Shown here piece after piece: positions 3,655 to 22,459 of a stretch of 64,000 bases of DNA. Under the pieces are notes generated by a model, which searched no databases, was not told the DNA's origin, and saw only the letters and a list, made by a program, of their open reading frames with translations. A program made the position numbers and the translations under genes. Within the stretch, counting starts at the first letter, position 1; each line of letters begins with the position of its first letter. Location of the stretch: the NCBI RefSeq assembly GCF_000313565.1, contig NZ_HE578928.1, forward strand, positions 205,127-269,126, written 5' to 3'. Origin of the DNA: Dielma fastidiosa (GTDB taxonomy: Bacteria; Bacillota_I; Bacilli_A; Erysipelotrichales; Erysipelotrichaceae).

Positions 3655-4506
3655 CTATTTATCGAAATACTTACGGCGCTTTGTCGATTGGATAAATTTC
3701 TGTTTCATGCCATCAACATCCTCAGCCATCAGCTTTTGTTTAAAATCATTAATCTCATCGACAAAAGCCGTAATCTCATTTACCAATACATCCTTGTTCA
3801 TCAAAAACAGCTCAGTCCACAGATTTTCATTGATTTTAGCAATGCGGGTTAAATCACGGAAGCTGTCACCGGTATATTCCTTTAGATGCGAGTTGTCATT
3901 GGCATTCATTAATGAAACAGCGATGACATGCGTCAGCTGTGATAAGTAGCCAATCATTTCATCATGTTTTTCCGGTGTAAGAATACAGATATTGTTGAAG
4001 CGCAGTTCAATCCCAAATTCATAGAGAAAATCAATCGCTGCCTGTGTGTTCTTTGATGTCGGCGTTATGATGAGATTCGCTGGTAAAAAGATAGAAGGAT
4101 CTGCAAATTGCACACCGCTGACTTCCTTACCGGCCATTGGATGACTGCCGATAAACTCACAGTCTTCACGCAGCAATTCCTGAATCTTATAGATAATACT
4201 GCATTTTACACCTGTTACATCCGTAATCAAGGCATTCTTTTTGAAGTATTGCTGATTCTCGCTGATCCAGCCAACGATGGTTTTGGGATATAATCCAGAT
4301 ATAATCACATCAGCTTGGCTGATTAAATTAGGATCTGCAGTTGCCGCACCCTCATCAATGATGCCTTTTTCTAACGCGTAGTTGATGGAAGCTTCGTTAA
4401 TATCGATAGCTGAAACGATATGGCCTCTTTTTTTAAGACCCATTGCGTAGCTGCCGCCTAATAAACCAAGTCCGATGATCAAAAATCTTTTCTTTTTATC
4501 AATCAT
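3655..4506 (-). CDS. tyrA: Prephenate dehydrogenase
   Basis: A 283-residue NAD(P)-dependent enzyme that oxidatively decarboxylates prephenate to 4-hydroxyphenylpyruvate, the tyrosine branch. The Rossmann motif GLGLLGGSYA is near residues 12-21. The family motif GSHPMAGKEVSG and the C-terminal helical dimer region follow. No ACT domain is present, so allosteric control by tyrosine through such a domain is not expected. ATG at 4506 is preferred (AAAGGTG upstream); a GTG at 4515 is also open. The start overlaps the end of aroA, and this is the last gene of the aro operon. Confidence 0.92.
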   Translation of the reverse strand: MIDKKKRFLIIGLGLLGGSYAMGLKKRGHIVSAIDINEASINYALEKGIIDEGAATADPNLISQADVIISGLYPKTIVGWISENQQYFKKNALITDVTGVKCSIIYKIQELLREDCEFIGSHPMAGKEVSGVQFADPSIFLPANLIITPTSKNTQAAIDFLYEFGIELRFNNICILTPEKHDEMIGYLSQLTHVIAVSLMNANDNSHLKEYTGDSFRDLTRIAKINENLWTELFLMNKDVLVNEITAFVDEINDFKQKLMAEDVDGMKQKFIQSTKRRKYFDK

Positions 4507-5767
4507 GAAACTCACTCACCTTTATCATTACCTTACGGCAGTCATTGAAGAATGCCGGATAACTCTTCTCAATATACTCCGCTTCATCAATAACTACCTC
4601 ATGATCCGCAATCGCAGCCGCTACTGTCAATGCCATCACAATGCGGTGATCCTTCCAGCCGCTGAGCGCATCAGGCGTCTGTGTCATGCCGCCATTAATG
4701 ATGATTTCATCTTCACTGCTGCTGATATCGCAGCCAAATTTGCGAAGTTCTGTTTCCATCGCTAAAATCCGATCACTTTCCTTGATTCTCAGCCGACCGG
4801 CATTATAAATCTTAGTACAGCCTTGGGACGCCATGGCAAGCGTACAGACAATAGGGCCAAGATCCGGACAATTATGCAGATCAATATCATGGGCATGCGG
4901 TTCACCTTTGCATACATGATAACCGCCTTCAATCTCTTTAACAGTGATGCCGAAATCCTTAATAATCTCAAGAATCTGCTTATCTCCCTGCAAAGAATCA
5001 TGGCGTACACCTAAAATATCTAAATCATGATTGATCGCTGCCATTACCGCAAAGAAAGCAAATTGTGAAAAATCACCTTCCACCGCCGTATCATGGGCAT
5101 GATAATGCTGATTACCCTTAATATATAATGTATTTTCATCCTCAAAGCTGACTTTCACACCAAACTCTTCCAGCATCTGCATCGTCAGCAGCACATAGCT
5201 TTTAGATTCAAATGTATTTTCAATATGAATCCTTGAATCATCCTCAAGCAGCGGCAGAATGAATAACAAGCCGCTGATAAACTGCGAAGATACATTTCCC
5301 GGCAAAGTATAATTACCTGGTTTCAGTGCTCCTTCAATGGTGATTGAATGCTCATCCTGTTCATAGAAACAGCCCTGAGCTTTAAATAAGTCCTCGTAAA
5401 TCTTCTGCGGACGTTTCAAGAGACGATTTTTGCCGGTAAAGCTAACCCTCTGTCCAGTCGCGGCAAAGAGGGGAATAAAGAAACGCAGGGTAGAGCCTGA
5501 TTCATTGCAGTTTATTACAGACGCATTCAAGTGATTAAAATCCTTAATGCCGTTTATTTTTAAGCTATGCTCATAGCATTCAATTTCTGCGCCTAAAGCG
5601 CGCATCCCTTCAATTGTTGTCTGTACATCCACAGAATAAGCAATATTGTCAATGTGTGAAACTCCCGGTGCCAGACAGGCGCAAAGAATCGCGCGGTGAC
5701 TCATGCTTTTGCTTGGCGGTATCTTTACACTGCCGCTGCAAGCGGAAGGTGTTACCGTCACTTTCAT
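4499..5767 (-). CDS. aroA: 3-phosphoshikimate 1-carboxyvinyltransferase (EPSP synthase)
   Basis: A 422-residue enzyme that joins shikimate-3-phosphate and PEP. It shows the shikimate-phosphate binding PPSKSMSHRA near the N terminus, the ESGSTLRFF motif (usual form GNSGTTxR), and near the C terminus RIKESDRI and GWKDHRIVMAL. These are the standard two-domain family signatures and the length is normal. The start is one base after the stop of the second DAHP synthase gene, so coupling is expected. The glyphosate-sensitivity class cannot be stated with certainty. Confidence 0.95.
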   Translation of the reverse strand: MKVTVTPSACSGSVKIPPSKSMSHRAILCACLAPGVSHIDNIAYSVDVQTTIEGMRALGAEIECYEHSLKINGIKDFNHLNASVINCNESGSTLRFFIPLFAATGQRVSFTGKNRLLKRPQKIYEDLFKAQGCFYEQDEHSITIEGALKPGNYTLPGNVSSQFISGLLFILPLLEDDSRIHIENTFESKSYVLLTMQMLEEFGVKVSFEDENTLYIKGNQHYHAHDTAVEGDFSQFAFFAVMAAINHDLDILGVRHDSLQGDKQILEIIKDFGITVKEIEGGYHVCKGEPHAHDIDLHNCPDLGPIVCTLAMASQGCTKIYNAGRLRIKESDRILAMETELRKFGCDISSSEDEIIINGGMTQTPDALSGWKDHRIVMALTVAAAIADHEVVIDEAEYIEKSYPAFFNDCRKVMIKVSEFHD

Positions 5768-5768
5768 C

Positions 5769-6785
5769 TTACAGATCCCTGCCGATCACTTGCGCGATCG
5801 CACGGCCTTTCTTAATTACATTCGCGAATTTCTCTGGTTTCAATGACTGCGCACCATCACTCCATGCGCATTCAGGGTTATCATGCACCTCAATAATCAA
5901 ACCATCGGCACCTGCCGCAATTGCAGCTAAGCTCATTGATTCAATTAATTTCCAATTACCAGTCGCATGTGACGGATCAATAATAATTGGCAGATGTGTC
6001 TTTTCCTTAATAATAGGCACAACACTTAAATCCAAAGTATTTCTGGTATATTTTTCAAAAGTACGAATACCGCGTTCACATAAGATAACATTTTCATTAC
6101 CGCCGGCCATGATATATTCGGCTGACATGATCCATTCTTCAATTGTGTTAGCTAAACCGCGCTTTAATAAAATTGGCTTCTTAGTTTTACCTACCGCTTT
6201 CAGTAAAGAGAAGTTCTGCATATTTCTCGCACCGATTTGAATAATGTCTACATTTTCCACAAATTCATCGATATGCTCGGCATCCATCAATTCACTGACA
6301 ATTGGCAGTCCTGTGCGTTTTCTCGCTTCTGCCATAGCCCGGATGCCCTCACTTTCAAGGCCTTGGAACGCATAAGGTGAAGTTCTTGGCTTATAAGCAC
6401 CGCCGCGCAGCATAGTACCACCGGCATCCTTGACTTCCTGTGCAATGCGGCAGATCTGATCCTCACCCTCAACGGAGCATGGACCGCCGATAATCACAAT
6501 TTTTTCATTGCCGCCAATCTTAATGCCAGCCGCTTCTACAATTGTATCTTCTGGATGGAAAAGACGGTTTGCTTTTTTATAAGGTGCCGCAATGCGGGTA
6601 ACATCCTCAATCCATGGATTTGCTTTAATGATTTTTTCATCCAATGAGGTAGTATCTCCAATCAAACCTAAAATATGGTAATTGCTGCCCTGTGAGTTAT
6701 TAACTTGAAAGCCTCTGTCTTCATAAGACTTAATAATTCGTTCAACTTCATTTTTCGGTGTATCTTTTTTTAATGTAATAATCAT
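5769..6785 (-). CDS. aroF: DAHP synthase, type with N-terminal ferredoxin-like domain (copy 2 of tandem pair)
   Basis: A 338-residue enzyme that condenses PEP and erythrose-4-phosphate, the first step of the shikimate pathway. Residues 1-70 form the ferredoxin-like regulatory domain. The TIM barrel follows with IGGPCSVEG, RGGAYKPRTSPYAFQG, LLKRG, ERGIRTFE and DPSHATG. It is about 80% identical to its upstream neighbour by hand count: about 50% over the first 50 residues and about 85% over the rest. In this family the N-terminal domain binds the feedback amino acid, so the two copies may answer to different end products (inference). GGGGG precedes the ATG. Confidence 0.93.
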   Translation of the reverse strand: MIITLKKDTPKNEVERIIKSYEDRGFQVNNSQGSNYHILGLIGDTTSLDEKIIKANPWIEDVTRIAAPYKKANRLFHPEDTIVEAAGIKIGGNEKIVIIGGPCSVEGEDQICRIAQEVKDAGGTMLRGGAYKPRTSPYAFQGLESEGIRAMAEARKRTGLPIVSELMDAEHIDEFVENVDIIQIGARNMQNFSLLKAVGKTKKPILLKRGLANTIEEWIMSAEYIMAGGNENVILCERGIRTFEKYTRNTLDLSVVPIIKEKTHLPIIIDPSHATGNWKLIESMSLAAIAAGADGLIIEVHDNPECAWSDGAQSLKPEKFANVIKKGRAIAQVIGRDL

Positions 6786-6798
6786 AATTTATCCCCCT

Positions 6799-7815
6799 CT
6801 AGATATCACGGCCAATAACTTTGGCAATCGCTCTTCCTTTTTCAACAACCTGTTTAAATTTAGCTGGCTTTAATGACTGCGCGCCATCACTCCATGCGCA
6901 TTCTGGATTGTCATGAACCTCTATAATCAAGCCGTCAGCACCTGCCGCAATTGCCGCAAGGCTCATTGACTCAACAAGATCCCAGTCACCGGTCGCATGT
7001 GATGGATCGATGATGATCGGCAGATGGCTCTTGCGCTTAATGATTGGCACAACACTCAGATCTAATGTATTTCTTGTATATTTTTCAAATGTACGGATAC
7101 CGCGTTCACATAAGATGACATTCTCATTGCCGCCGGACATAATGTATTCCGCTGACATCAGCCATTCTTCAATCGTATTACTCAAGCCGCGCTTTAATAA
7201 GATCGGTTTGCGGATCATACCCAGTGCTTTCAATAAATCAAAGTTCTGCATATTGCGGGCGCCTACTTGAATCAGATCGACATTTTCAACAAATTCATCA
7301 ATCTTATCCACACCCATAATTTCTGAAACAATTGGCAGACCTGTACGCTTTCTGGCTTCAACCATATCCTGAATGCCCTCACTGCCTAAACCCTGGAACG
7401 CGTAAGGCGAAGTTCTTGGCTTATACGCACCGCCTCTTAGCATTACACCGCCGGCATCTTTAACCTCTTGAGCTATACGGCAGATTTGATCCTCACCTTC
7501 CACAGAACATGGGCCGCCGATTACAACAATATTTTCCTTGCCGCCGATCTTAATCCCTGCGACATCCACCACTGTATCTTCCGGATGAAACAGGCGGTTT
7601 ACCTTTTTATAAGGTGCCGCAATGCGGGTAACCTGTTCAATCCATGGATTCGCACGAACAATTTTTTCATCAACAATCGTTGTATCGCCGACAATACCAA
7701 ATACGTTATAATCAACACCGCGGATCAGATTGACTTCCAATCCCTTATCTTCAAATTCCTTAATAATTTTATCAATTTCTGCCTGTGGGGCGCCCTTTTT
7801 ACAAGTAATAATCAT
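6799..7815 (-). CDS. aroF: DAHP synthase, type with N-terminal ferredoxin-like domain (copy 1 of tandem pair)
   Basis: 338 residues, the same length and architecture as the adjacent copy. All barrel motifs are intact (GGPCSVEGED, GGAYKPRTSPYAFQG, CERGIRTFEKYTRN, IIIDPSHATG), so both copies should be catalytically active. The ATG overlaps the aroQ stop by 4 nt (ATGA) and has AAAGGAG upstream. The duplicates are separated by only 13 nt. Divergence is concentrated in the N-terminal regulatory domain. Confidence 0.93.
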   Translation of the reverse strand: MIITCKKGAPQAEIDKIIKEFEDKGLEVNLIRGVDYNVFGIVGDTTIVDEKIVRANPWIEQVTRIAAPYKKVNRLFHPEDTVVDVAGIKIGGKENIVVIGGPCSVEGEDQICRIAQEVKDAGGVMLRGGAYKPRTSPYAFQGLGSEGIQDMVEARKRTGLPIVSEIMGVDKIDEFVENVDLIQVGARNMQNFDLLKALGMIRKPILLKRGLSNTIEEWLMSAEYIMSGGNENVILCERGIRTFEKYTRNTLDLSVVPIIKRKSHLPIIIDPSHATGDWDLVESMSLAAIAAGADGLIIEVHDNPECAWSDGAQSLKPAKFKQVVEKGRAIAKVIGRDI

Positions 7816-8255
7816 GATTCTTTCTCCTTTAATTTTTCAATCAATATTTCTATCGCATGCTTATATCCCTGAATTCCTTCACCGGTAATCGTTTTGAAGC
7901 AAGCCAATCCCGGATATGAAATCTGTCTGAATGCTTCACGGCTTTCAACTTTAGAAATATGTACCTCTACCGCTGGGATACCCACTGCCTTTAATGCATC
8001 AAGAATGGCAATGCTTGTATGCGTATAAGCCGCTGGATTGATTACAATACCATCAATTTTACCATAGGCTTCCTGAATCCTGTCAACCAATGCACCTTCG
8101 TGATTGCTCTGATAGAATTCTACCAGCACTTGATGCTCATCGCAAGTTTTCTGACATAAATCAAGCAATGCCTGATAGCTTTCACTTCCATAAATACCCG
8201 GTTCTCGGATACCAACCATATTGATATTCGGGCCATTAATTACAAGTAACTTCAT
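7812..8255 (-). CDS. aroQ: Type II 3-dehydroquinate dehydratase
   Basis: A 147-residue enzyme that dehydrates 3-dehydroquinate to 3-dehydroshikimate. Type II signatures are NGPNINMVGIREPGIYG at the N terminus with the catalytic Tyr, FYQSNHEG, INPAAYTHTS, and EVHISKVESREAFR with the catalytic His. ATG at 8255 has AAGGAG upstream; one codon earlier there is an in-frame TTG. The first 20 nt overlap the end of the aroE-aroK gene. Confidence 0.93.
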   Translation of the reverse strand: MKLLVINGPNINMVGIREPGIYGSESYQALLDLCQKTCDEHQVLVEFYQSNHEGALVDRIQEAYGKIDGIVINPAAYTHTSIAILDALKAVGIPAVEVHISKVESREAFRQISYPGLACFKTITGEGIQGYKHAIEILIEKLKEKES

Positions 8256-9483
8256 CAAATCGCTCCTTTATCTGTTTGAGGGCAGCCTCAATTGTTGAAT
8301 TATTATCTATTTCAAATTGACTGTATTTCTGATACAGCGGCATTCGTTCCTTTTCCATTGCCATCAGACGTTCTTTACTTGAGGAAAGCGGCCGGCTGTC
8401 ATCAACTAATAATGCGTCTAAATTACGCCGGATATGGAAGATAATACCATTTTGTGCCAATGAGCGCATATTCTCTTCGTTTTTTATAATGCCGCCGCCG
8501 CAGGAGATGATCAGCTTTGTCTGCTTCGCGAGATCTTTACAAATTGCTGTTTCTATTTCCCGAAACCTTGCTTCACCCTCTGTATCAAAGATTTCCCTGA
8601 TTGTGCGCTGTTCTCGGCGGACAATTTCTTCATCGATGTCAACCAAACGTTTATCACTGATTTTAGCCAATTCCTGTGACAATGTTGTTTTGCCGCTGCT
8701 TGGCATACCGATTATAACGATATTTGCCATATCCTTATAGATTTCATCAGTAATCTGATGTATTTTTTCATCATCAAGCGCTATGTCATGAAAGAATTCA
8801 CACGCTGCCTTTGCCTGTGCCACCAGCATCTTTAAACCATTCACATGCTTCAGCTTCAGTTCTTCCGCCTGTTGGCAGAGTCTGGTTGTCAATGGGTTAT
8901 AGATTACATCCGCTACTGCCTCCAATTGACCAAAATCAGCAAGATCGATGATTTGATCATCATTATTAGGATACATGCCAACGCTGGTAGCATTGATGAA
9001 CACTTGAATTTCCTGATGCTGTTTCAAGGCTTCATAGCTGATGATCGGCGCTGGCTTATTGCGGCCGGCAACCAGTATTTCCTTCGCTCCCATCGCTTTT
9101 AATACCGCCTGTGCCGTTTTACTTGTACCGCCGGTTCCCAGTACACAGCAGCATTTATCTTTAATGACAATGTTATGCTGCTTCAGCATCAGCATTAAAC
9201 CAGTAAAGTCGGTATTCGTCGCTATCAAGCGGCCATTGCGGTTGACAATTGCATTCACTGCATGAATTGCTAATGCCTGTTCATCAATTTCATCACAATA
9301 CTGCATTACTGTTTCCTTATAGGGAATTGTTACATTGATAGCTTTAAAAGCCTTTGTTTCCATGAATTCGACGAGCTGCTGCTCATCAAGTTCAATTAAT
9401 TCATAGGGCTGATCAATCAGTTTTTCATGTATCATTTTAGAAAAGCTGTGCCCTAGTTTTTTTCCGATTAATCCAATTCGCAT
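8236..9483 (-). CDS. aroE-aroK: Shikimate dehydrogenase - shikimate kinase fusion
   Basis: A 415-residue two-domain protein. Residues 1 to about 250 are shikimate dehydrogenase: GHSFSK, NVTIPYKE with the catalytic Lys, NTDFTG, the dinucleotide loop LGTGGTSKTA, and NATSVGMYPN. From about residue 255 to the end is shikimate kinase: P-loop IIGMPSSGKTTLS, DIDEEI, a GEARFRE-type Arg, SCGGG, and the lid DSRPL. The fusion carries two consecutive steps, dehydroshikimate to shikimate to shikimate-3-phosphate. ATG at 9483 has GAGGG at good distance; an ATG six codons earlier lies inside aroC. No frameshift separates the halves. Confidence 0.93.
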   Translation of the reverse strand: MRIGLIGKKLGHSFSKMIHEKLIDQPYELIELDEQQLVEFMETKAFKAINVTIPYKETVMQYCDEIDEQALAIHAVNAIVNRNGRLIATNTDFTGLMLMLKQHNIVIKDKCCCVLGTGGTSKTAQAVLKAMGAKEILVAGRNKPAPIISYEALKQHQEIQVFINATSVGMYPNNDDQIIDLADFGQLEAVADVIYNPLTTRLCQQAEELKLKHVNGLKMLVAQAKAACEFFHDIALDDEKIHQITDEIYKDMANIVIIGMPSSGKTTLSQELAKISDKRLVDIDEEIVRREQRTIREIFDTEGEARFREIETAICKDLAKQTKLIISCGGGIIKNEENMRSLAQNGIIFHIRRNLDALLVDDSRPLSSSKERLMAMEKERMPLYQKYSQFEIDNNSTIEAALKQIKERFDEVTCN

Positions 9484-9485
9484 AA

Positions 9486-10571
9486 TCAATCCCTCATCCA
9501 TTTACCGCCATAGGCTTCAACACATAAATCAAGCAGGCATAAAGCGGTCACTGCATCAACTACGACCCTTGCCCGATGGAAGATTGCTGGATCATGGCGT
9601 CCTTTCAATTCCAATATGGTTTCCTTTTTCTCATTGTAATCTACCGTCTGCTGCGGCTTGAAGATGCTTGGTGTAGGTTTAATTACCGTTCTGAATAAGA
9701 TTGGCATACCATTTGCGATACCGCCGTTGATACCGCCATTGTTATTTGTTTTTGAAACGATCTTATCACCGCTCATCAGCCATGCATCATTTGCTTCACT
9801 GCCATAATGATTGACAAAATCAAAGCCCATTCCGAATTCAACGCCCTTAACTGCTGGCACTGAGAATAGATACGCGCTTAGATTGCTCTCAATTGAATGG
9901 AAATAAGGCTCGCCGATGCCGGCCGGCACATTCAGAATCATTGTTTCAAGAATACCGCCAACACTGTCCTTTTGAGCTGCCGCTGCTTCTATCAGTTTGA
10001 TCATTGCACTTTGAGCATCATTGTCCAATACGGCAAAGTCCATGGCTGACAAAGCTTTTAAATCCGCGTTCAGATCATCAAATTCACGGTCATGAATATC
10101 CATACACTGCTTTATGTGGGTACCAATTAGAATGCCTTTTTTTTCAAGAATTTGTTGGGCGATCGCGCCTGCCGCTACCAACGGAGCAGTGATTCGGCCT
10201 GAGAAATGACCGCCGCCTCGGTAATCCTGACAGCCGTGATATTTCACATAGGCCGTGTAATCAGCATGTGAAGGTCTCAGCAGCTGCGGTGTATAATCTC
10301 TTGAATGCTGTTCCTTATTCATAATTTGAATATGCAGCGGTGTACCGGTTGTACAGCCATTAAAGAAACCGCTGGTTATATGAAACAAATCCTCCTCATG
10401 ACGCTGTGTTGATATCTTTCCCTTAGCCCGGCGTTTATCAAGCTGTGCCTGTACCGCATCAAGATTAAGCTTAATACCAGCTTCTAAACCGTCAATGACC
10501 ACACCGATTGATTCACCGTGGCTTTCACCATAAAGTGAAATCGTAATATTTTTACCGATTGTACTTTTCAT
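9486..10571 (-). CDS. aroC: Chorismate synthase
   Basis: A 361-residue FMN-dependent enzyme that converts EPSP to chorismate. Signature segments are GESHG near the N terminus, DKRRAKGKISTQRHEED, GCQDYRGGGHFSGR (the usual RSSGRET region in variant form), and NNNGGINGGIANG. Normal length. The ribosome site AGGAGG is 5 nt before the ATG. It is the second gene of the aro operon, after aroB. Confidence 0.94.
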   Translation of the reverse strand: MKSTIGKNITISLYGESHGESIGVVIDGLEAGIKLNLDAVQAQLDKRRAKGKISTQRHEEDLFHITSGFFNGCTTGTPLHIQIMNKEQHSRDYTPQLLRPSHADYTAYVKYHGCQDYRGGGHFSGRITAPLVAAGAIAQQILEKKGILIGTHIKQCMDIHDREFDDLNADLKALSAMDFAVLDNDAQSAMIKLIEAAAAQKDSVGGILETMILNVPAGIGEPYFHSIESNLSAYLFSVPAVKGVEFGMGFDFVNHYGSEANDAWLMSGDKIVSKTNNNGGINGGIANGMPILFRTVIKPTPSIFKPQQTVDYNEKKETILELKGRHDPAIFHRARVVVDAVTALCLLDLCVEAYGGKWMRD

Positions 10572-10580
10572 GAAAACCTC

Positions 10581-11600
10581 CTATAAGTATTTTCTTAATG
10601 TCTCAATATCAACATCAATTAACTGCGCGTGACCAATTTCTTCAACCTGAACGATGGTAACCTTTTTGCCATCGGCTTTTTTATCATTGAATATTAAATG
10701 AATCACTTCATCCGGATCATAAGCCGCATCAATCGGCAGATTCATTTTAGTCAATATCGCCTGTAGACGCTGTTTAATTTCCTCATTCTCGATAATTTTC
10801 ATCATACCGATGCTGACACATTCTCCATGATAATAATCATGAAGGTGGTACAGACTCTCAACCGCATGACCAATGGTATGACCAAAATTTAATATTTTAC
10901 GAAGATTGGCTTCCTTTTCATCAGCCTCAACCACTTTCTTCTTGACGATTAAGGAGCGGGTAATGATCTCCTCAAGAACCTCATCCGGTTCATTATTCTG
11001 GAAATCGGCGTCATGCTTCTCAAAAAGCTCAAACAATTCAGGATCAGCAATTAAGCCTTCCTTGACCGCTTCCGCCAGACCGTTATAGTAATGCCGGCGC
11101 GGCAGTGTTTTTAGGGTTGTTAAGTCGACAATTACCACTTCCGGGTGGTAAAAGGTTCCCAATACATTTTTTACTTCATCAAGATTGATTGCGACCTTGC
11201 CGCCGATGCTGGAATCAATCTGTGACAGTGTTGTGGTTGGAATTGAAGAAAAATGGATGCCTCTTTTAAAGGTAGCCGCTACAAATCCGCTTAAGTCTCC
11301 GATGACACCGCCGCCCAGCGCAAGTATTAAATCATTTCTTGAGAAGTTCAATTCCAGAAGCTTCATGCAGATCTGTTGATAAACACGAACGCTTTTAGCC
11401 CCCTCACCCTGTTCAGTAATAAACAAATGACCGTTAGGGCATTGTGACAAAACAAGCTGCTGATATTCAGCGGGAACTCCCTCATCAGTGATAATCATAA
11501 CCTTGCGGTTCAGATCAATATAATCTGCCAGCCGTGTTATCGCGTTTCTGACAATTACAATACGGCTGCTTGCTTCACTTAAGTTAACTGATAATTCCAT
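10581..11600 (-). CDS. aroB: 3-dehydroquinate synthase
   Basis: A 339-residue NAD- and metal-dependent enzyme that cyclises DAHP to 3-dehydroquinate. The motifs are EGAKSV, LALGGGVIGDLSGFVAATFKRGI, PTTTLSQIDSSIGGKVAIN, and NFGHTIGHAVE, which carries metal ligands. I chose ATG at 11600 because AAGGAGATC precedes it by the right distance. The frame stays open to 11690, but that extension would run through the attenuator hairpin. It is the first gene of the aro operon and lies 22 nt after that terminator. Confidence 0.93.
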   Translation of the reverse strand: MELSVNLSEASSRIVIVRNAITRLADYIDLNRKVMIITDEGVPAEYQQLVLSQCPNGHLFITEQGEGAKSVRVYQQICMKLLELNFSRNDLILALGGGVIGDLSGFVAATFKRGIHFSSIPTTTLSQIDSSIGGKVAINLDEVKNVLGTFYHPEVVIVDLTTLKTLPRRHYYNGLAEAVKEGLIADPELFELFEKHDADFQNNEPDEVLEEIITRSLIVKKKVVEADEKEANLRKILNFGHTIGHAVESLYHLHDYYHGECVSIGMMKIIENEEIKQRLQAILTKMNLPIDAAYDPDEVIHLIFNDKKADGKKVTIVQVEEIGHAQLIDVDIETLRKYL

Positions 11601-11621
11601 ATTCTGATCTCCTTTTCTAAT

Positions 11622-11653
11622 AAAAAAAGCATCCGTCTTACCAGAATGCTTTG
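11622..11653 (-). terminator. Attenuator hairpin before aroB
   Basis: On the minus strand AAAGCATTC...GGATGCTTT is followed by a run of seven T. It lies between the promoter and the aroB ribosome site, so it can only serve as a conditional terminator of the operon's own transcript. Confidence 0.75.
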
Positions 11654-11745
11654 TTATGCCCCTCTTTTGATTAAAAGTCAAAATGACCAATCGTATTTCG
11701 AATTGGTTTATCGGGGCCTAGCAATAAAAGTAAAAGACTGACGCT
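11622..11745 (-). promoter_or_regulatory. Structured leader RNA of the aro operon (candidate riboswitch or attenuator)
   Basis: On the minus strand the leader can fold into a three-helix junction. P1 is GCCCC (11713-11717) with GGGGC (11658-11662). P2 is ACCAAT with ATTGGT (11686-11707). P3 is TTTTGA with TCAAAA (11665-11683). A terminator follows at 11622-11653. The segment at 11730-11745 (AGCGTCAGTCTTTTAC) can instead pair with the 3' half of the terminator (13 pairs, one mismatch, a 2-nt bulge), which would act as an antiterminator. I do not recognise it as a T-box or any standard riboswitch. The ligand is unknown; an aromatic amino acid or pathway intermediate is a guess. Confidence 0.55.
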
Positions 11746-11771
11746 TTATTTAACATTGTTTTCATGCTTCA

Positions 11772-11800
11772 AGTTTAAAACAAATTAAAATGAATTGCAA
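11772..11800 (-). promoter_or_regulatory. Promoter of the aro operon
   Basis: On the minus strand TTGCAA (11795-11800) and TAAACT (11772-11777) are separated by 17 bp. The expected start site is near 11765, giving a leader of about 165 nt before aroB. Confidence 0.6.
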
Positions 11801-12161
11801 GTAAAAAATGAAAGAATTTCACTATTCCATGAAAATTCATATCAACACTGTTACATTTATTAGCTATCAGAAAAACATTTATTTTGAAATAGACCTATGA
11901 TACACTAAAGCAACCTTTCTTCTATCTTCAGTATATCATTCCTATTGACCAAAATCAAAAATATTTCATTTTTGGTCAATAGAAACATCTTTTATAAATA
12001 AGGTTCCCATTAATCCACGATTTACTATATTCTTGAAAAAATATTGAGATAATAAACTCTTTAATTTGAAAGATGAACGTTATTATATTCATGGTTGAAC
12101 ATATTGTAAGTTCTTTTAAAGTATTACACTGAGAGATAATACAGAAATACATAGCCCAAAA
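11801..12161. other. Intergenic stretch without a recognisable gene
   Basis: AT-rich DNA between the aro promoter and the terminator of the bgl operon. The only open frames are short and lack convincing ribosome sites. I see no RNA gene or repeat here. Confidence 0.6.
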
Positions 12162-22431: not shown

Positions 22432-22459
22432 ATAGATGATAGTGAAAGAGGGTGCCCGC

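Follow-up and report, generated by a model that had tools for sequence, protein, structure and literature searches.

The stretch of DNA analyzed here, which we call the window, comprises 64,000 nt of Dielma fastidiosa (GCF_000313565.1, NZ_HE578928.1 205,127-269,126), and the leader under study occupies its positions 11622-11800. The leader RNA was read from the minus strand because aroB, the gene downstream of it, lies on that strand (10581-11600). The operon runs without large gaps in the order aroB-aroC-aroE/K-aroQ-aroF-aroF-aroA-tyrA, and its genes, as assigned by Pfam, are as follows:

10581-11600, minus strand, aroB, 3-dehydroquinate synthase (DHQ_synthase, 4e-43)
9486-10571, minus strand, aroC, chorismate synthase (2e-119)
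8236-9501, minus strand, aroE-aroK fusion, shikimate dehydrogenase and shikimate kinase in one ORF
7812-8258, minus strand, aroQ, type II dehydroquinase
6799-7815, minus strand, DAHP synthase copy 1, with ferredoxin-like domain
5769-6785, minus strand, DAHP synthase copy 2, with ferredoxin-like domain
4499-5767, minus strand, aroA, EPSP synthase
3655-4515, minus strand, tyrA, prephenate dehydrogenase, the last gene of the run

By these assignments the aroB-tyrA operon yields Tyr and Phe precursors, matching the codons of the leader described below. The two DAHP synthases are adjacent paralogs, both with the ferredoxin-like domain, within a single operon (5769-7815, minus strand). By eye, pheA at 22436 has no comparable leader. 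Upstream of aroB the following elements were located:

11772-11800, minus strand, promoter (-35 TTGCAA at 11800-11795, 17-nt spacer, -10 TAAACT at 11777-11772)
11718-11765, minus strand, leader peptide ORF MKTMLNKASVFYFYC*, from translation and from aromatic-run ORFs in relatives
11735-11747, minus strand, segment A, AAAGCGTCAGTCT, spanning codons 7-11 of the leader, with complementarity to both the loop and the 3′ arm of the terminator
11735-11724, minus strand, FYFY codons, from translation of MKTMLNKASVFYFYC*
11720-11718, minus strand, leader stop codon TAG, with the first base of helix P1 directly 3′ of it
11713-11717, minus strand, 5′ strand of helix P1, GCCCC, directly 3′ of the leader stop codon, with compensatory changes
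11686-11707, minus strand, hairpin P2 (11707-11702 with 11691-11686), of the ACCA...TGGT type, kept in the homologs of groups I and II defined below
11680-11683, minus strand, UUUU run, just 3′ of P2
11665-11683, minus strand, predicted helix P3, UUUUGA/UCAAAA (11683-11678 with 11670-11665; p ~0.8), overlapping the U-run
11658-11662, minus strand, 3′ strand of helix P1, GGGGC, pairing with 11717-11713
11622-11652, minus strand, intrinsic terminator (5′ arm D 11652-11644, 3′ arm E 11634-11626, U-tract 11628-11622)
11609-11614, minus strand, aroB Shine-Dalgarno sequence AAGGAG, from sequence

A promoter-like pair (TTGCAA-17-TAAACT) stands where the initial annotation saw a promoter. Its hexamers agree with the consensus at only 8/12 positions, but relatives keep both where they lie and how they are spaced. 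The gap between the end of TAAACT and the leader ATG is exactly 6 nt in the window and in 5/5 relatives of genus g58, and the same distance recurs in four further loci; the remaining loci mostly have 10-24 nt between the -10 element and the ATG, as a rule together with a Shine-Dalgarno sequence (a few of the start codons in these loci are uncertain). From the 6-nt spacing we infer that transcription probably starts at the leader AUG, the predicted first nucleotide being the A of that codon (11765) or one beside it, and that the leader mRNA of the window's branch is, judged from this spacing only, probably leaderless. Some 170 nt 5′ of the aro leader, a near-perfect inverted repeat, CTATTGACCAAAA...TTTTGGTCAATAG (11939-11985, minus strand), overlaps an extended -10 promoter-like site (TTGATT-17-TATACT); its sequence is suggestive of an operator or of another promoter under regulation.

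A predicted aromatic leader peptide and the helices that follow it

The initial annotation had seen no leader peptide rich in aromatic codons, and in this it erred: the ORF at 11765-11718 (ATG AAA ACA ATG TTA AAT AAA GCG TCA GTC TTT TAC TTT TAT TGC TAG) encodes 15 residues with four consecutive Phe/Tyr codons (FYFY) near the C-terminus. Searching the DNA of 98 relatives with the leader returned, besides the window itself, only fragments at chance level. As nothing of useful significance was found in this way, homologous loci were traced through AroB. Counting as aromatic any ORF with at least four aromatic residues in its last seven codons and a stop codon 70-180 nt before aroB, we found an aromatic-run leader ORF in 44/70 Erysipelotrichaceae aroB upstream regions, against 1.55 expected from dinucleotide shuffles. 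Within the family (named loci L062-L067) the ORFs stand at the same place and carry Tyr/Phe runs at their ends; examples are MKIVNNAFFYFYR, MNMKANASYFYFYR, MNTFKQASSFYFYR, MKNVASYFYFYC, ..NKGYYYYR, MRKNAYFYYYE, ..SSSYFYFTFR (Holdemania), MKTVKYYYYYYFR and MKQNNILKGFFYYFR, among others. The aroB upstream regions of four loci of genus g48 (L048, L049, L054, and L055) have neither a detected aromatic leader ORF nor an Rfam match; L048 has a terminator upstream of aroB.

The runs vary across the family (YYYY, FYFY, YFYFYF, FFYYF, YYYYYY, YYFFYF, YYFTF), so that the order and number of Phe and Tyr residues change and only their aromatic identity is kept, as would be expected if the codons rather than the peptide sequence are read. 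This variation bears on a TnaC-like arrest, in which the nascent FYFY(R/C) peptide together with free Phe or Tyr would stall the ribosome at the stop codon, occlude P1 and permit termination. A very uniform leader C-terminus (FYFYR/C) in the window's branch is consistent with such an arrest; the order, length and residues of the run nevertheless change across the family in the manner of codon sensing.

The homologous leaders fall into three architectures. In groups I (which includes the window) and II, P1 begins at the stop codon and is followed by P2 and the U-run. Group III is considered below. The start of P1 lies at most 4 nt from the leader stop codon in 19/20 loci. The outer five pairs of P1 are paired in 55/55 cells, with 11 distinct stems and 18 two-sided changes, as compared with a mean of 34.6 and a maximum of 43 under shuffling. 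A MAFFT alignment of so divergent a set misaligns P1, and the stems were therefore placed by hand; the 55/55 count is thus partly by construction, as the same set served both to define and to count the stems. Independent support comes from the swap test, in which native partners pair better than swapped ones in group I (p = 0.004) and in group II (p < 2e-4). Among homologs P1 preserves pairing and not sequence, and the compensatory changes to which the initial annotation had looked for confirmation were thereby found in this helix.

P2 is nearly invariant and hence provides little covariation support. In nearly all homologs the hairpin that follows the leader stop codon has a U-run no more than 3-5 nt away, and P2 with the U-run is likely an RNA polymerase pause site. 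The three-helix junction of the initial annotation stood as regards P1 and P2; the third helix, P3, is specific to the window, as it sits in an insertion absent from relatives. Folding stability by itself is weak evidence for a structured leader, since the antisense strand (z = -3.3) folds at least as well as the minus strand (z = -2.2).

The possibility that the leader is an ordinary 5′ untranslated region, carrying a chance aromatic ORF together with either a constitutive terminator or a partial attenuator, has in its favor that TTT, TAT and TAC are frequent in AT-rich DNA and that the stability of the leader reaches only z = -2.2. Set against this are the 44 loci where 1.55 were expected, the compensatory changes in P1 and the coevolving 2:3 and 3:4 pairs of group III (below), and we regard this reading as in practice refuted by the conservation of the sequences, its residual probability being negligible.

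The initial annotation described the layout as that of a riboswitch or an attenuator. The attenuator half of that description holds in view of the leader ORF. For a riboswitch, in which the P1/P2(/P3) junction would serve as the aptamer, binding an aromatic amino acid, chorismate or some other metabolite, and would act directly on the terminator, we found no support, nor for any of these ligands, which had been proposed with the Phe/Tyr ORF overlooked. Such a riboswitch would be consistent with the conservation of P1, the near invariance in groups I and II of P2 with its U-run (AACCA...TGGTTNTTTT), the downstream terminator and the lack of an Rfam family at threshold. On the other hand, an ORF with aromatic codons comes first in 44/70 loci and abuts P1, P1 keeps its pairing and not its sequence, the third helix is window-specific, and group III controls the same gene without the junction. 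In place of a conserved core within a conserved junction, the sole candidate core is P2 with the U-run, and we consider a metabolite riboswitch very improbable.

The terminator and the position of the ribosome

The terminator noted by the initial annotation right before aroB was recovered as a hairpin at 11652-11626 (-9.2 kcal/mol) followed by seven U, 22 nt before the aroB ATG at 11600, and it occurs at the same place in nearly all homologs. Likewise, the upstream segment said to pair with the 3′ half of the terminator corresponds to segment A (11747-11735). Its complementarity to the 3′ arm (A:E) exceeds that of codon-shuffled leaders in the window (z = -3.1; 4/500); five relatives give z values between -1.3 and -2.4, L089 gives -4.0, and in other groups z is about 0. 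Native partners are better than swapped ones at p = 0.0044 in group I, but at p = 0.067 when six core sequences are taken.

A ribosome footprint was placed codon by codon on the leader and terminator formation was predicted at each position. In equilibrium folding of ribosome-free window RNA, A:E replaces the terminator hairpin (terminator probability 0.00), and when a ribosome occupies the aromatic codons or a position 5′ of them the terminator probability is ~0.7-0.8, depending on the pairs counted. The probability of P1 is ~1.0 until the ribosomal A-site reaches the last Tyr codon and is 0 thereafter. Ribosome position thus switches both P1 and A:E in the window, and equilibrium folding gives no antiterminator in the stalled state. 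This runs against the textbook direction, as the window's branch shows no terminator in ribosome-free RNA, where A:E wins, and a terminator when the ribosome is stalled on the aromatic codons. An antiterminator sequestering the 5′ arm of the terminator was looked for in the window's branch and none was found. One candidate was a longer P1 whose added 3-6 pairs would sequester the 5′ arm during stalling; it did no better than swapped partners (p = 0.33) and was rejected. The ORF and its conservation, the compensatory changes in P1, the terminator, the A:E complementarity and the setting of P1 by the ribosome are all observations made by computation.

A helix beside a U-tract, including one that draws its 5′ strand from another site, can itself terminate transcription. 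Because A:E abuts the U-tract, it may be a long-range terminator stem, prevented by the stalled ribosome, which would give the right direction of control; we hold this to be possible, while stopping short of calling it probable. That A:E is instead an antiterminator of untranslated RNA, the wrong direction for simple starvation control, seems to us rather doubtful, and it is to the same degree doubtful that A:E is neither of the two. For the window's branch as a whole we tentatively propose a leaderless transcript in which the coding segment masked by the ribosome pairs with the loop and 3′ arm of the terminator and not with its 5′ arm.

Our preferred reading, which we consider highly probable, is that the aro leader is a ribosome-mediated transcription attenuator responsive to charged tRNA-Phe and tRNA-Tyr, the sensor being most likely a ribosome that translates the leader peptide with its four consecutive Phe/Tyr codons. 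RNA polymerase would begin transcription on the leader AUG or immediately beside it, and the ribosome would translate MKTMLNKASVFYFYC while the polymerase probably pauses at P2 and the U-run. In cells well supplied with Phe and Tyr, the ribosome would reach the stop codon, where it would block P1 since the stop codon lies against that helix, and transcription would end before aroB. With Phe or Tyr short, the ribosome would stall on FYFY, P1 would form, segment A would be masked and, in the direction of control that we propose, the polymerase would read on into aroB-tyrA. The same abutment of stop codon and P1, and the loss of P1 upon occupancy of the stop codon, also suit the TnaC-like arrest described above, which would have the right direction if A:E is an antiterminator in released RNA; in group III, by contrast, it is a stall on the aromatic codons, not one at the stop codon, that alters the folding, and we judge peptide arrest to be improbable.

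Group III (18 loci, e.g., Holdemania) governs the same gene without a P1/P2 junction. Segment 1 (GGGCA) lies just after the stop codon and is followed by segment 2, AGATAATTGCCC, and segment 3, GGCATTATCT; the 5′ arm and loop of the terminator are complementary to segment 3. The 2:3 pairing is stronger with a leader's own partner than with swapped partners (-13.4 vs. -10.5 kcal/mol), as is the 3:4 pairing (-18.6 vs. -14.5 kcal/mol), both at p < 5e-5 (0/20,000 permutations), and the control pair 2:4 has no advantage over swapped partners in this group (p = 0.18). When the A-site is placed on the aromatic codons, the predicted terminator probability falls to 0.17 in L086, 0.33 in L099, and 0.46 in both L097 and L100, and the terminator is restored with the ribosome at the stop codon. 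The dip is weaker in L103 and L082, and there is little or none in several others. As modeled by folding, the dip on the aromatic codons is the textbook attenuation switch.

In group II no terminator switch was predicted at any ribosome position. The Shine-Dalgarno/start region complements the P2/U-run segment in L036, L038, L039, L045, and L057, with energies of -17 to -27 kcal/mol, and a pairing between the two reaches -12 to -27 kcal/mol in single leaders; as a candidate it was set aside, being not clearly above swapped partners (p = 0.21 for the UTR test, p = 0.02 for the leader test). It would perhaps close the leader after one round of translation.

Relation to known attenuators and significance

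The initial annotation had treated the leader as belonging to no existing Rfam family, and none reached threshold. With Rfam searched at the gathering cut-offs and also with E values of 10 or less accepted, the leader had a single, sub-threshold match, to Phe_leader (RF01859), which spans 11757-11620 with 27.5 bits (E 0.017) against a gathering threshold of 55; no homolog reached that threshold. Elsewhere in the window, skipping-rope RNA (RF02924; 20397-20474, minus strand; 62.1 bits, gathering 36.7) is the sole Rfam family above threshold. As in the enterobacterial pheA/pheST attenuators, a short ORF with aromatic codons is followed by a hairpin, an intrinsic terminator and an aromatic biosynthesis gene. 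The aro leader differs from these in its mixed Phe/Tyr codons (theirs are Phe), in the operon controlled (aroB rather than pheA), in the helix directly after the stop codon, in being probably leaderless, and in its alternative pairing.

The absence of T-box features reported by the initial annotation was borne out, as the covariance model RF00230 gave no match at the leader; the genome has 17 T-boxes above cut-off, none at the aro leader. In a sister family of the same order the operon starts with DAHP synthase, and a T-box lies upstream in 11/11 loci examined (L118, L120, L121, L123, L125, L129, L130, L132, L133, L136, and L137), with RF00230 scores of 118-134 bits that served as a positive control. 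Their aligned specifier region, TGAATTC, is conserved and, taken by position, is perhaps a Phe (UUC) specifier. These T-boxes and the aro leader have their target pathway and their bacterial order in common; the T-boxes sense tRNA directly without a leader peptide, whereas the leader in the window has the peptide and no T-box. We infer that both families would therefore govern the aromatic pathway by tRNA charging, each with machinery of its own.

Leaderless leader-peptide attenuators comprise the trp leaders of Actinobacteria and rhizobia and the cysteine attenuators of mycobacteria. The window's leader shares with them an AUG that coincides with or adjoins the presumed transcription start, a series of codons for an amino acid and control of the genes downstream. 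It differs from them in phylum, amino acid and RNA structures, and its leaderless start is deduced from the 6-nt spacing.

Attenuators with His leader peptides are described in six Erysipelotrichales species, and also in Peptostreptococcaceae and the Bacillus cereus group (PMC9413887). As in the aro leader, and in the same order of bacteria, a run of the regulated residue lies in a short peptide directly upstream of the attenuator/terminator hairpins; the codons there are His codons before the his operon, unlike the Phe/Tyr codons before a shikimate-tyrosine operon found here. In the open-licence literature we found no report of an aromatic leader-peptide attenuator in Erysipelotrichaceae. The kind of mechanism is thus already known in the order, and the aromatic version is apparently undescribed in the open-licence literature. 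The leaderless branch, with its pairing to the 3′ half of the terminator, may be a new variant.

These results remove a false lead for a new riboswitch class and point to a candidate sensor, a ribosome on Phe/Tyr codons, for the shikimate operon in one family of gut bacteria. If the leaderless wiring tentatively proposed for the window's branch is true, P1, abutting the stop codon, reports whether the aromatic codons were passed, and the segment that the ribosome covers either builds a terminator stem across the whole leader or undoes one. This raises the question of whether the helix formed by the ribosome-masked segment with the terminator 3′ arm ends or rescues transcription. There would then be at least three attenuator wirings for one operon in one family, with T-boxes in use in the sister family. 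The two sister families would present one pathway with two tRNA-sensing systems, T-box and leader peptide, and the several leader-peptide solutions within Erysipelotrichaceae would form a natural series on how attenuators are replaced and rewired.
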